From: Microbacterium sp. Root166
GTDB taxonomy: Bacteria > Actinomycetota > Actinomycetes > Actinomycetales > Microbacteriaceae
Length of the DNA stretch: 64,000 bases
Reading direction: 5' to 3'
Assembly: GCF_001427145.1 (NCBI RefSeq)
Contig: NZ_LMGL01000004.1
Span: forward strand, 124,001-188,000
The translations under genes were made by a program, and so were the position numbers. Below the pieces are notes generated by a model, which saw nothing but the letters and a program-made list of their open reading frames with translations, was not told the origin of the DNA and ran no database searches. Within the stretch, counting starts at the first letter, position 1, and each line of letters opens with the position of its first letter. Below, piece after piece: positions 7,028-63,270 of this stretch.

Positions 7028-7109
7028 CCCGGGCTCGCCCCGGCACTCCGCTGCCCAGGCGCTGCACAGGGCTGCGCGGTACGCTGGACACCGGATCCCA
7101 CCCGGATCC

Positions 7110-7150
7110 CCGGACGACGGATCAGTACCCGGTGAGCGACAAGACTGGCC
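7110..7150 (+). ncRNA. guanidine-III riboswitch (ykkC-III / PRF class)
   Basis: Three blocks of the class consensus occur in the right order and spacing: CCGGACGA (7110-7117), GTACCCGGT (7125-7133) and GACAAGAC (7138-7145). CCGG at 7110-7113 can pair with CCGG at 7129-7132, and GG-TCAGT (7119-7126) with ACTGGCC (7144-7150), giving the interlocked pseudoknot known for this aptamer. The 3' strand of the second helix directly abuts the ribosome-binding site GGGAG (7151-7155), 7 nt before the exporter ATG. That layout fits control of translation initiation, with guanidine turning expression on. The downstream gene is of the guanidinium-exporter type, which is the expected partner. Confidence 0.88.
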
Positions 7151-7162
7151 GGGAGCACAGTC

Positions 7163-7483
7163 ATGTCGTGGGTCATCCTCATCGTTTCCGGCATCCTCGA
7201 AGCCGTCTGGGCGACAGCGCTCGGCAAGTCCGAGGGCTTCACCAAGCTCTGGCCCACGGTCGTCTTCGGGGTCTCGCTGCTGCTGAGCATGGGCGGCCTC
7301 GCCTGGGCGATGCGCGACATCTCCACCGGCACGGCCTACGCGGTCTGGGTGGGCATCGGCGCATCGCTGACGGTCGCCTACGCCATGATCACCGGCGACG
7401 AGTCGTTCTCGTGGGTCAAGATGCTCCTCATCCTCGGCCTCGTCGGCTGCGTCGTCGGCCTCAAGGTCGTCGGCCACGAGTGA
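7163..7483 (+). CDS. SMR family guanidinium exporter (Gdx/SugE type)
   Basis: A 106-residue small multidrug resistance protein with four transmembrane helices. It starts MSWVILIVSGILEAVWATAL, with the essential membrane Glu at position 13. The helix 2-3 region holds GTAYAVWVGIGAS, closest to the SugE/Gdx subtype. Gdx proteins work as dual-topology dimers exchanging guanidinium for protons. The guanidine-III aptamer immediately upstream supports guanidinium as the substrate more strongly than the sequence alone, since quaternary-ammonium SMR proteins look similar. The start has GGGAG at a 7 nt spacing. It is a single gene, so it would act as a homodimer. Confidence 0.92.
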   Translation: MSWVILIVSGILEAVWATALGKSEGFTKLWPTVVFGVSLLLSMGGLAWAMRDISTGTAYAVWVGIGASLTVAYAMITGDESFSWVKMLLILGLVGCVVGLKVVGHE

Positions 7484-59938: not shown

Positions 59939-61861
59939 TCAGGCGTCGACGGGCGTGAGCGCGTGCGCCACCAGGCGCTCGAGCGTGATCATGCCGTCGC
60001 GCGACAGGATCGACTCGAGGTGGCCCTGGACCGAGGCGTATCCCGGCCCGCGCAGCGCGTAGACGTCGCCGCTTGCGTCCGCGGCGACCGCGGTCTCTCC
60101 GACCGCTGTGGTGCCCGCGGGGACGCGCGCCGTGAAGGTGTTGTAGAAGCCGATGGATGCCGGCATCCCGAACACCTCCACGGTCTTCTGCAGTCCCTGG
60201 TGCGGCGCGGCCAGCGGCGCGAGCTCGAATCCGACGGAGTCCGCGAGGATCTGATGGCTCAGGCACACGGCGAGGAGCGGCCGGCCGGAGGCGCGGCGGG
60301 CCGACACGACCTCGCGCATGCGCTGCATCCGCGCGGTCGACGGATCGCGGGGGTCGCCGGGGCCGGGGCCCGAGACGACGAGGTCGGCCGCGTCGAGGTC
60401 GGCGTCGGTCACGGCGTCCCAGGCCGCGATGCGGGTGTCGAGTCCGAGGTGGCGCAGTTGGTGGGCGAGCATCGTCGTGAAGCGGTCCTCGGCGTCGACG
60501 ACGAGGGCCGAACGTCCGGCGAACGGCCCGGCGCCGTCGGCGCCCTGCGGGTTCAGCCAGAACGAGGCGAGGCGGGCGTTGCGCGAAGCCAGAAGCTCGG
60601 CGATCTCGGGGTCGTCGGCGAGCAGGCGGGGCTCGGGCGCCGGTGCGTCCTCGTCGATCGGCGCCGCGGGCGCGGCCACGACATCACGGGGGATCGCGCC
60701 GATGGCGCCGAGCACTCCGGCGGCCTTGCCATGGGTCTCGCCGACTTCGCCGTACGGGTCGGAATGGCGCACGAGGGTCGCGCCGACGGGCACCCGCAGG
60801 CGTCCGTCCTGGAGGTACGCGGTGCGGATGAGGATGGGGGCGTCCAGGTCGTGCGTGGGCTCGCCCTCGCCGACTTCGGCGCGGGGCGTGAAGAGCGCCG
60901 CGACGCCCGAGTAGTAGCCGCGCGGCGTGCGCTCGTGGCGCGTGATGACCGTGCACGCGTTCTGCATCGGCGAGCCGGTCACGGTGGGCGCGAACATGGT
61001 CTCGCGCAGGATGTCGCGAGGATCGAGCCGGCTGCGGCCGCGCAGCACGTACTCGGTGTGCGTCAGGCGTGACATCTCCTTGAGATGCGGACCGGTGATG
61101 CGGCCGCCGTCCGAGCACACGGCGCTCATCATCTTGAGCTCCTCGTCGACGACCATGAAGAGCTCTTCGGTCTCTTTGGTCGACTCGAGGAACTCGGTGA
61201 GCGTCTCGGCCGTGGCGCCGCCCGCGGGATGGCGGAACGTGCCCGAGATCGGGTTCATCGTGACGATGCCGTCCTGCGCGCTGACATGGGCCTCGGGGCT
61301 GGCCCCGACGGCCACGTGCCCGGGCGTCACGATCGCGAAGGTCCAGTAGGCGCCGCGCTCGTACTCGAGCAGCGCGCGGAACCAGGTCAGCGCCGCGGTG
61401 GCCGGATCCAGGTCGACGCCGGCGGTGAAGTCGCGGCGGATCACGAAGTTGGCGCCCTCGCCCCGGCCGATCTCGTCGGCGATGACCCGGCGGACGATGT
61501 CGGCGTAGGCCTCGTCGGCGATGTCGAACCCGGCGTCGGCGAGCGGAACGGGCTCGGTCGGCAGCTGGGCGAGCACCTCGTCGCGCGACAGGGCCTCGCG
61601 TCCGGTCACGATGAGACAGCGCAGCGGCGCACCGTCGTCGTGGCACTCGAACCCGCGCTCGCGCACCTGGCGGAACGGCACGAGCGCGAGGACCTCGCGT
61701 GCCGTGCCCGCGGCGTCGACCAGCGGGATGTCGGCGAGGAGGTCGACGTCGACGACATCGCCGGTGAGGACCTCCACGGTGACGGCGTCACGGGCGATGA
61801 GGGCGAACGGGATGCCGCGCGCAGCAAGCTCGCGCAGGGAGAGGTGGGCGAACCCGGTCAT
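59939..61861 (-). CDS. fused anthranilate synthase (TrpE+TrpG), PhzE-like
   Basis: A 640-residue bifunctional enzyme: chorismate-utilising domain (about 1-430) and class I glutamine amidotransferase domain (about 455-640). The first has PhzE-type segments EGANFVIRRDFTA, GERGAYWTF-type ERGAYWTFAI, MNPISGTFRHPAGG, VVDEELKMMSAVC and APTVTGSP. The second has GPGPGDPRDP, the nucleophile in LLAVCLSHQILA and HLE in VQGHLESIL. Sequence is closest to PhzE (2-amino-2-desoxyisochorismate synthase) and fused streptomycete TrpEG. No phenazine gene is nearby, and a trp attenuator precedes it, so anthranilate formation for tryptophan is the better call. No LLES feedback motif is seen in the N-terminal part. 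Confidence 0.88.
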   Translation of the reverse strand: MTGFAHLSLRELAARGIPFALIARDAVTVEVLTGDVVDVDLLADIPLVDAAGTAREVLALVPFRQVRERGFECHDDGAPLRCLIVTGREALSRDEVLAQLPTEPVPLADAGFDIADEAYADIVRRVIADEIGRGEGANFVIRRDFTAGVDLDPATAALTWFRALLEYERGAYWTFAIVTPGHVAVGASPEAHVSAQDGIVTMNPISGTFRHPAGGATAETLTEFLESTKETEELFMVVDEELKMMSAVCSDGGRITGPHLKEMSRLTHTEYVLRGRSRLDPRDILRETMFAPTVTGSPMQNACTVITRHERTPRGYYSGVAALFTPRAEVGEGEPTHDLDAPILIRTAYLQDGRLRVPVGATLVRHSDPYGEVGETHGKAAGVLGAIGAIPRDVVAAPAAPIDEDAPAPEPRLLADDPEIAELLASRNARLASFWLNPQGADGAGPFAGRSALVVDAEDRFTTMLAHQLRHLGLDTRIAAWDAVTDADLDAADLVVSGPGPGDPRDPSTARMQRMREVVSARRASGRPLLAVCLSHQILADSVGFELAPLAAPHQGLQKTVEVFGMPASIGFYNTFTARVPAGTTAVGETAVAADASGDVYALRGPGYASVQGHLESILSRDGMITLERLVAHALTPVDA

Positions 61862-61897
61862 GATCGGTCTTTCGTCGTGGGGGCGGTCGGCCCTACG

Positions 61898-61925
61898 AAA
61901 AAGAAGACCGCCCCGAGGGCGGTCT
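61898..61925 (-). terminator. attenuator terminator of the fused anthranilate synthase gene
   Basis: On the minus strand AGACCGCCC (61925-61917) pairs with GGGCGGTCT (61913-61905) with a TCG loop, followed by TCTTTTT. It lies 36 nt before the structural gene and so ends transcription early when formed. Its 5' arm can instead pair with GGCGGT at 61941-61947. Confidence 0.9.
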
Positions 61926-61957
61926 GAGGTCACGCGAACCCACCGCCTTATGCGGTG
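61918..61957 (-). promoter_or_regulatory. attenuator segments 1-3 (pause and antiterminator pairing)
   Basis: Reading the minus strand: segment 1 CACCGC (61957-61952), segment 2 GGCGGTG (61947-61941), segment 3 AGACCGCC (61925-61918). Segments 1+2 pair as the pause hairpin; 2+3 pair as the antiterminator; 3+4 form the terminator. A ribosome stalled on the Trp codons (61965-61960) would mask segment 1, allowing 2+3. Confidence 0.85.
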
Positions 61958-61983
61958 AGCCACCAGGACAGGTGCGCGGACAT
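61948..61983 (-). CDS. trpL: trp leader peptide
   Basis: An 11-codon ORF, MSAHLSWWLTA, with two adjacent Trp codons, overlaps the attenuator. Comparable actinobacterial leaders (for example in Streptomyces venezuelae) contain two or three adjacent Trp codons before trpE or trpEG. There is no ribosome-binding site; the ATG lies six bases behind a TAGGTT -10, so the leader peptide is likely read from a leaderless mRNA. Confidence 0.88.
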   Translation of the reverse strand: MSAHLSWWLTA

Positions 61984-61989
61984 GGGGCG

Positions 61990-61995
61990 AACCTA
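61990..61995 (-). promoter_or_regulatory. -10 hexamer TAGGTT, promoter of the trp leader
   Basis: TAGGTT with an upstream TGG (extended -10), six bases before the trpL ATG, sets the transcript start at that ATG. TCGACA further upstream is too distant (23 nt) to be a standard -35. Confidence 0.55.
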
Positions 61996-62037
61996 CCACA
62001 CGGCAGGTGGCGGCATCCTGTCGATGACGCCCGTCGT

Positions 62038-63270
62038 TCAGCGCGTCGCGCGCTCCAGCATGGCGGCGACGTGACGCCATCCGACGGCCTCGTACCCGAC
62101 GACCACGACAGCCGGTGCGCACGCGATGAGCAGCAGCGCGGTGCCCATCGAGGCCCCGAGCGACACGGCGACGACGCTCGCGACGAGAGCGGCGACCGAT
62201 CCGAGGTAGAGCCAGATGTGGAACGGATCGAACTGCATCACGGTGATCGCGTAGATCCCGAAGAGGAACGTCTCGTACACGAGCACCGGGATCGCGATGC
62301 ACAGCACTGCGAAAGTCGCGTCGACGTGCGCGTGGTCGGTGATGACGTTCGCGGCGACGTGGAGGCCCGCGCCGACGGCGACGAGCGACCCGAATATGAA
62401 CAGGTGCAGGTAGCCCCACGGGAATCCGCGCCAGCGGTGATGCTCGAGCACCTTGCCGAAGGGGAGCACGAAGTAGCTCCACCACAAGCCGAACGCGAGC
62501 GCCGTGCCGCCGAAGGCCACGAGCCCTGCCTCGAGGGACCAGCCGTACTCCTCGATGACGGCCGAGATCGCGAGGATGGTGCCGAGAATGACCTCGCCCA
62601 GCGTGATGATCACCAGGAGGCCGTACCGCTCGGCGATGTGATGGGGGTGCCAGGGGGTGGGACCGTAACGCTTCTCGGCGAAGTACGGACCCGCGAGTTC
62701 GAACAGCGACAGGAGCGTCGTCAAGACGAGCGTGATCCCGAGCGGCAGGTTGAGGAAGATGAGCGCAATCCACCCGACCTGGGCGATCGAGACGTTGACG
62801 GCGTAGGCGATGCACGTCCTGCGGCGCTTCTCGTCGTGCCGCGCGGCGCGGATCCACAGCGCGATCGTCGCGACGCGCATCACCACGTACCCGGCGACCA
62901 TGACGGTGTTGTCGAAGATGTGGCCCTCGTCGACCGAGTGGAACACGTCGGGCACGCCAAGGGCGACGATGAGGACGCCCACCATGATCACGAGCGTCGC
63001 GATGCGGAAGAACGCATCGTCGGTGTCGTACGCCGACGCAAGCCAGGAGTAGTTGACCCACGCCCACGCGACAGCGAACGTCGAGAACGCGAGGCCGGTG
63101 AGCGCTGTCGACACGTGGCCCAGCTCGAGATAGTGCGCGGCCTGCGACCCGATCTGGCTGAAAGCGACGACGAAGACGAGATCGAACAGCAGCTCGAGCG
63201 GGGTCGCAGTGCGATGCGGCTCGTTCGGGTCTCGGCCGACCATGCGTCCGAGGTGGTGGCTCAGGCTCAT
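62038..63270 (-). CDS. low temperature requirement protein A (LtrA) family membrane protein
   Basis: A 410-residue polytopic protein with about eleven hydrophobic segments. The N-terminal TPLELLFDLVFVVAFSQI, the AERYGLLVIITLGEVILGT block and SYFVLPFGKVLEHH are diagnostic of the LtrA family, named from a Listeria gene needed for growth in the cold; the biochemical role is unknown. It sits between the trp-type gene and the divergent ispG. The start at 63270 has TAGTTT six bases upstream. Confidence 0.88.
   Translation of the reverse strand: MSLSHHLGRMVGRDPNEPHRTATPLELLFDLVFVVAFSQIGSQAAHYLELGHVSTALTGLAFSTFAVAWAWVNYSWLASAYDTDDAFFRIATLVIMVGVLIVALGVPDVFHSVDEGHIFDNTVMVAGYVVMRVATIALWIRAARHDEKRRRTCIAYAVNVSIAQVGWIALIFLNLPLGITLVLTTLLSLFELAGPYFAEKRYGPTPWHPHHIAERYGLLVIITLGEVILGTILAISAVIEEYGWSLEAGLVAFGGTALAFGLWWSYFVLPFGKVLEHHRWRGFPWGYLHLFIFGSLVAVGAGLHVAANVITDHAHVDATFAVLCIAIPVLVYETFLFGIYAITVMQFDPFHIWLYLGSVAALVASVVAVSLGASMGTALLLIACAPAVVVVGYEAVGWRHVAAMLERATR

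Follow-up and report, generated by a model that had tools for sequence, protein, structure and literature searches.

The window, that is, the whole stretch of 64,000 nucleotides from Microbacterium sp. Root166 that was analysed, contains a gene for a fused anthranilate synthase preceded by a short leader and a hairpin. All elements of this putative attenuator lie on the minus strand, and they are listed here in the order in which they would be transcribed.

61996..62000 (-): TGTGG, the extended part of the -10, recognized from conservation within the genus
61990..61995 (-): -10 hexamer TAGGTT, ending 6 bases 5' of the leader ATG (sequence and comparison with relatives)
61948..61983 (-): leader ORF MSAHLSWWLTA*, 11 codons, probably leaderless, with transcription putatively starting at 61983 or a neighbouring base
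61975..61981 (-): 5' arm of the 5'-end helix, leader nt 3-9 (fold, coevolution with the spacer, compensatory changes)
61960..61965 (-): tandem Trp codons 7 and 8 (TGGTGG, leader nt 19-24), the putative stall site, from the sequence
61952..61960 (-): segment 1, predicted by folding to pair with segment 2
61938..61947 (-): segment 2 (GGCGGTGGG...), pairing with segment 1 or segment 3
61929..61936 (-): 3' arm of the 5'-end helix, in the spacer that separates segments 2 and 3 (fold, coevolution, compensatory changes)
61917..61925 (-): segment 3, the 5' arm of the terminator, whose core ACCGCC (61918-61923) pairs with segment 2 (folding, terminator scan)
61905..61913 (-): segment 4, the 3' arm of the terminator (alignment pairing, terminator scan)
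61898..61904 (-): T-tract TCTTTTT (sequence, terminator scan)
59939..61861 (-): PhzE-family fused anthranilate synthase, 640 aa (Pfam Chorismate_bind and GATase; best solved relative 3r74)

A short ORF with tandem Trp codons thus stands upstream of a gene of the Trp pathway. The basic parts had been named in a sequence-only reading of this DNA and were confirmed at their places, at a level well above chance: the 11-codon ORF with two TGG codons (61983-61948), the TAGGTT (61995-61990) six bases ahead of its ATG at 61983, and the 9-bp hairpin (61925-61905) with a T-tract running to 61898, 86 nt from the leader ATG. That reading had packed everything into 100 nt upstream of the structural gene, which is too tight, as the gene starts at 61861 and the leader ATG lies 122 nt upstream. 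A terminator scan of 61700-62200 returned two sites against 0.1 expected, namely a weaker 5-bp hairpin on the plus strand and the present one, an intrinsic terminator ahead of the gene as in a trp attenuator.

Rfam placed no family at the attenuator site at gathering score, and within the window it found only a tRNA and a guanidine-III riboswitch. The riboswitch (7090-7153, plus strand, 55.2 bits) lies nine bases 5' of a 106-aa ORF (7163-7483), which by eye presumably resembles an exporter of the small multidrug-resistance type. Next to the attenuator, an LtrA-family gene (62038-63270, minus strand) ends 54 bases 5' of the leader ATG; since it is on the same strand, transcripts that read through from it would include the attenuator but lack a leaderless 5' end.

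The product of the fused gene carries Chorismate_bind and GATase domains in one chain (Pfam), and its best solved relative is 3r74, with 503.7 bits over residues 19-635 against 65.2 bits for the next; 3r74 is taken here to be the Burkholderia PhzE. With both domains present and PhzE as the closest solved structure, the enzyme belongs to the PhzE type, in agreement with the first reading. An assignment to TrpE-clade3 (TIGR01815), a different type of fusion to which Sinorhizobium meliloti TrpE(G) presumably belongs, was rejected at 137.6 bits versus a cut-off of 739.15. A trpE_most search of the own genome gave three matches, the best at 286 bits and under the cut-off of 517.7. This best match is PabB (340 bits versus a cut-off of 328.4); another comes nearest to isochorismate synthases (TIGR00543, 220 bits, just under the cut-off of 224.75), and the third is the fused gene itself. 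In the same genome trpB, trpD and trpC are over their cut-offs, with trpC beside trpB, and one stand-alone glutaminase scores above the cut-off of the trpG_papA subfamily. As judged from absence, the fused gene is likely the only candidate for an anthranilate synthase in this genome, and its PhzE-like product is the likely housekeeping anthranilate synthase of a genome in which no canonical TrpE was found. An LLES-like motif, which we take to be the Trp feedback site, was found within the first 70 residues in 0/73 fused enzymes (the window protein and its relatives), which may leave most of the control by Trp to attenuation.

Evidence for the leaderless start came from relatives. In a fetched set of 66 fused-gene loci, with seven further host-family matches left out, 61 have upstream a Trp-Trp ORF no longer than 18 codons. 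Among the other five, a contig end cuts the upstream DNA in two (L027, L043), a single Trp codon and a -10 six bases 5' of the start are present in each of two more (L066, L071), and no leader was found upstream of the fused gene in L041. Where the leader has a single candidate start, a TAnnnT ends 6 (27 loci) or 7 (22 loci) bases 5' of it in all 49 loci, with one further TAnnnT match in total over gaps of 0-44 in the same loci. When the most upstream start was taken for all 61 leaders, TAnnnT stood at 6-7 bases in 51, and when any candidate start was allowed, in 60; the exception, L042, has a leader with no TAnnnT at that distance. A second set consisted of named relatives, the best 80 of 559, of which three had too little upstream DNA. 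Of the remaining 77 loci, again with any start allowed, 76 have a Trp-Trp leader 6-7 bases after TAnnnT, and the last, from Rhodococcus, has a gap of 8 bases.

SD-like 4-mers were found 5' of the leader start in 0/61 cases, which, with TAnnnT at 6-7 bases across relatives, agrees with the earlier description of a probably leaderless leader that has no ribosome-binding site. Among 38 distinct same-genus sequences, every base of the TGTG that precedes the -10 is conserved at 80% or above, and conservation is slight beyond it. A -35 box resembling TTGACA (at least 4/6, spacings 15-20) occurs in only 2/38 of these sequences, and a sigma-70 scan found no -35; in other host-family genera 8/21 have such a match, and a weak -35 is possible there. 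Judged against relatives, the position of the -10 would put the start of transcription at the start codon, no SD is seen, and transcription very likely begins at the leader's own ATG. The almost fixed distance from -10 to start across many genera suggests that leaderlessness is part of the mechanism and no accident.

The leader RNA (61983-61890) folds with -45.2 kcal/mol, whereas its shuffles average -34.6 (z -3.2), and 0/200 of them fold as well. The four segments and their pairings 1:2, 2:3 and 3:4, already proposed from the letters of this locus, all form in folding. Counted from the first base of the last Trp codon, segment 2 starts 14 nt downstream in 64/72 loci and 12-16 nt downstream in the rest (15 here), a spacing that fits the leading edge of the ribosome, given the size of the ribosome footprint. 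The pairings exclude one another, and by folding and geometry a ribosome stalled at the Trp codons would free segment 2.

The effect of ribosome position was modelled with a mask assumed to extend 15 nt ahead of the P-site codon, while the nascent RNA was folded to the end of segment 3. Loci were chosen for TAnnnT at 6-7 bases, and L110 and L123 were computed outside the tally. With the ribosome stalled at the last Trp codon, segment 3 was predicted to pair upstream (mean probability at least 0.5) in 59/60 host-family loci; with the ribosome at the stop codon it did so in 6/60, and with no ribosome still in 16/60. In 11 Streptomyces-like loci the corresponding counts were 11 stalled, 6 at the stop codon and 4 with no ribosome; for these loci the simple mask model is imperfect and reproduces the stop-codon state poorly. 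The full RNA at equilibrium favours the terminator in every ribosome state (medians 0.97-0.99), so the switch must be kinetic, and kinetics is something that folding cannot prove. Ribosome-mediated trp attenuation, as originally suggested for this site, is very likely on both lines of evidence, as the Trp-Trp leader is conserved (76/77, among the best 80 of 559 relatives) and masked folding reproduces the predicted switch.

The helices were further examined on an alignment, A1, of 54 distinct sequences from 59 host-family loci, from which L067 was left out because its hairpin is doubtful. The terminator helix pairs in 98.8% of cells, and three of its pairs changed on both sides, including a swap from A-U to C-G. 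Jointly, three helices give a covariation of 0.146; shuffling yields 0.079 (0/500 reach the observed value) and sliding no more than 0.069. Pairing of the 2:3 helix is possible in 92.3% of cells, with no covariation of its own on A1, as expected where four segments share one sequence; the 1:2 helix shifts register from species to species and is for that reason hard to count on a single alignment. Sequence, conservation and coevolution agree on the parts of the predicted attenuator and on their geometry.

A fifth element, absent from the first reading, is a helix that joins the 5' end of the leader, its first codons, to the spacer after segment 2. On A1, six of its seven pairs changed on both sides, and 71.8% of cells pair, a figure held down partly by a register that differs between genera. 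The first paired base is nt 1-3 in 48/72 loci, and in Embleya the helix can begin at base 1, with GTGATCGCGA facing TCGCGATCAC. An alignment-free test compared the pairing of each leader 5' segment with its own spacer and with the spacers of other genera. For 62 distinct pairs, taken from 72 loci of 12 genera and with L123 dropped, swaps between genera were as good in 4/5000 cases (1/2000 in an earlier run), and controls were as good in 535/5000 (reversed spacer), 3248/5000 (downstream stretch) and 4047/5000 (upstream stretch). In the named set, drawn from the best 80 of 559 relatives and overlapping the first set, 0/5000 swaps were as good; this test used 11 groups and 66 distinct pairs from 76 loci after three loci with no recognized terminator, short spacers and duplicates had been dropped, and three MAGs with no genus name were grouped as Microbacterium. 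The own spacer was no better than swaps in two of the 12 genera of the first test (g43, g25) and in two of the 11 groups of the second (Blastococcus, Yinghuangia). Among the matches listed from open-licence PMC papers, no trp leader with a helix between its first codons and the spacer after segment 2 was seen in print.

The fused gene is not universal in the host family. At E up to 1e-60 it was found in 37/299 host-family genomes, while TrpE matched strongly, at E up to 1e-115, in 252/299; a cross-count by hand gave 19 genomes with both, 18 with the fused gene only, 233 with TrpE only and 29 with neither, and all 6/6 same-genus genomes are in the fused-only class. The TrpE threshold detected 13/14 controls and missed that of Corynebacterium glutamicum; divergent TrpE can therefore escape, and the fused-only and neither counts are upper limits. 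The TrpE status of the own genome was taken from a looser search than this survey. A phylum search of 396 genomes gave 20 with a match, and 20 fused-gene loci were newly fetched. A leader with TAnnnT at 6-7 bases precedes 13 of them, and no leader was found at the other seven, of which five are preceded by an isochorismatase gene, another by a DAHP synthase gene and the last by an ORF with no known domain. That leader-lacking copies lie behind isochorismatase and DAHP synthase genes agrees with a role in secondary metabolism; L122, among these seven, comes from a genome with no other fused copy above threshold.

A covariance model of the family, whose training set includes the present sequence, scored the attenuator site at 70.3 bits and the next place in the own genome at 22.3, and no second strong copy of the element was found there. 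Across 150 host-family genomes, matches of at least 36 bits fell at fused genes except in two genomes, G146 and G192 (inspected down to 33 bits), which have no fused-gene match and in which each Trp-Trp leader has a TAnnnT seven bases 5' of its start. In G146 (C1:3691889-3691984) a leaderless-looking Trp-Trp leader, MHMTTAWWPTFSVG, with a hairpin and T-run, stands ahead of a gene with a methyltransferase domain; in G192 (C5:30816-30907) the same leader design, MSRNAMQSWWAA, stands ahead of a gene that is TrpB-like by eye. Canonical trpE was considered as a second home of the leader and rejected, as no convincing Trp-Trp leader was found within 700 bases upstream of the match in the 30 genomes examined out of the 252 with a strong TrpE match; two chance-looking ORFs were seen in them.

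Taken together, the locus is best read, with a probability of roughly 0.9, as a leaderless, ribosome-mediated Trp attenuator in control of the one anthranilate synthase candidate that the genome was found to have; the start site, the ribosome positions and the response to tryptophan are very likely as follows. The ribosome would have to load at the 5' ATG before the nascent RNA folds the start site away. When Trp-tRNA is low, it would stall at codons 7-8 and cover segment 1 and the 5' arm, so that segment 2 could pair with segment 3 once the latter is made, the terminator would not form and the gene would be transcribed. When tryptophan suffices, the ribosome would reach the stop codon just 5' of segment 2 and cover that segment, which would leave segments 3 and 4 to form the terminator. 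If no ribosome has loaded, or the ribosome has gone, the 5' codons would pair with the spacer and segment 1 with segment 2, which would close the start site and again allow 3:4 pairing.

With the 5'-end helix, each transcript may in this way have a single, timed opportunity for ribosome loading, and the helix is a possible physical basis for the kinetic character that the first reading suggested for the switch, itself an inference. Sequence, conservation and coevolution show the helix; its role as a timed gate is putative. In a fuller form, offered tentatively and at somewhat less than even odds, this would be a fifth element conserved throughout the Actinomycetota, in which pairing of the first codons with the spacer leaves the start open for about 35-45 bases of polymerase travel. 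That would give one timed loading chance for one ribosome per transcript, both Trp-tRNA and the capacity for leaderless initiation would be read, and failure to load would mean "stop". The opening of about 35-45 bases is our own estimate, based on the length of the exit channel. A competing account, likewise somewhat short of an even chance, makes the helix no more than the lower part of a common 1:2 pause hairpin, with no role in gating ribosome loading; the helix does continue the 1:2 hairpin in the same arm order. However, it reaches the first bases of a probably leaderless message (nt 1-3 in the 48 loci above), where its pairing must compete with initiation, and a 2025 study makes the case for ilvBNC that a hairpin of this sort blocks leaderless initiation (PMC11857589). 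Either way, the coevolving helix opens a testable question, that of a ribosome that can load only at the 5' end and races the folding of the RNA.

Other explanations concern the whole locus. That the best solved relative of the enzyme is PhzE could mean that it makes aminodeoxyisochorismate for a secondary metabolite and no anthranilate for Trp. This is very unlikely, however, for an enzyme gene under apparent Trp-codon control in a genome with no other anthranilate synthase candidate found, and the copies that lie behind isochorismatase genes have no leader. It is less probable still, to the point of being far-fetched, that the hairpin serves only to terminate the upstream ltrA-like gene, as intergenic terminators ordinarily do, and that the Trp-Trp ORF is there by coincidence: a strong terminator does lie downstream of this same-strand gene, but the leader ORF, its Trp codons, the segment spacing and the -10 are conserved together across many genera. 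The attenuator could also be as described and its leader be translated from a message that starts further upstream and has a 5' UTR, leaderless initiation not being its working mode. Read-through transcripts from the ltrA-like gene, which ends so near the ATG, can exist. Yet the -10 holds its distance of 6-7 bases in nearly all relatives examined, conservation within the genus drops upstream of TGTG-TAnnnT, and SD-like 4-mers precede none of the 61 leaders. Moreover, for Streptomyces lividans, whose leader is nearly the same as the leaders of the Streptomyces-like relatives, leaderless transcription is reported from RNA-seq (PMC8079986). Initiation behind a 5' UTR is accordingly rated unlikely, and the leaderless attenuator is preferred.

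Several known systems resemble this one. The ilvBNC operon of C. glutamicum has a near-leaderless leader, and an anti-antiterminator hairpin, H1, has been argued to cover the leaderless start site, much like the start-covering helix considered here; that system has branched-chain codons, three hairpins and another gene (PMC11857589). Trp attenuators predicted in Corynebacterium and Streptomyces share Trp codon runs, triples of complementary segments and GC-rich terminators with the present element; that report does not use the word "leaderless", and the part of it considered makes no mention of Microbacterium (PMC1262725). In S. meliloti, rnTrpL starts with the ATG of trpL, whose translation was seen by Ribo-seq, and trpE(G) is under transcription attenuation by Trp, as proposed for Microbacterium (PMC7298713, PMC10117765). 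S. meliloti belongs to another phylum than Microbacterium. Mycobacterial polycysteine short ORFs, reportedly described by Canestrari in 2020, are likewise said to be leaderless attenuating ORFs, with cysteine instead of Trp, and a trp attenuator has reportedly been described in Streptomyces venezuelae as well.

The closest parallel is the trpL1-trpE of S. lividans TK24, which has a tandem-Trp leader (MFAHSTRNWWWTAHPAAH there) that is leaderless by RNA-seq, a rho-independent terminator and a monocistronic anthranilate synthase gene trpE; the leader there has three Trp codons and 18 codons in all, whereas that of Microbacterium has two and 11 (PMC8079986). Leaders near-identical to TrpL1 precede fused enzymes of 51-54% identity in a Streptomyces-like genus (g109), where segment 2 lies inside the ORF, in contrast to Microbacterium, where it follows the stop codon. 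The novelty implied in the first reading is not supported, since trp leaders of the leaderless kind, placed before genes for anthranilate synthase, have been published for S. lividans (PMC8079986) and S. meliloti (PMC7298713, PMC10117765), and the kind of switch is already known. The element in Microbacterium was itself seen in none of the matches listed from open-licence PMC papers. What is added here is how widely the element is conserved, how nearly constant its -10 distance is, and that a 5' helix coevolves in a trp leader. In conclusion, leaderless trp attenuation, so far seen for single species, is extended to a gene-linked element across many actinobacterial genera.
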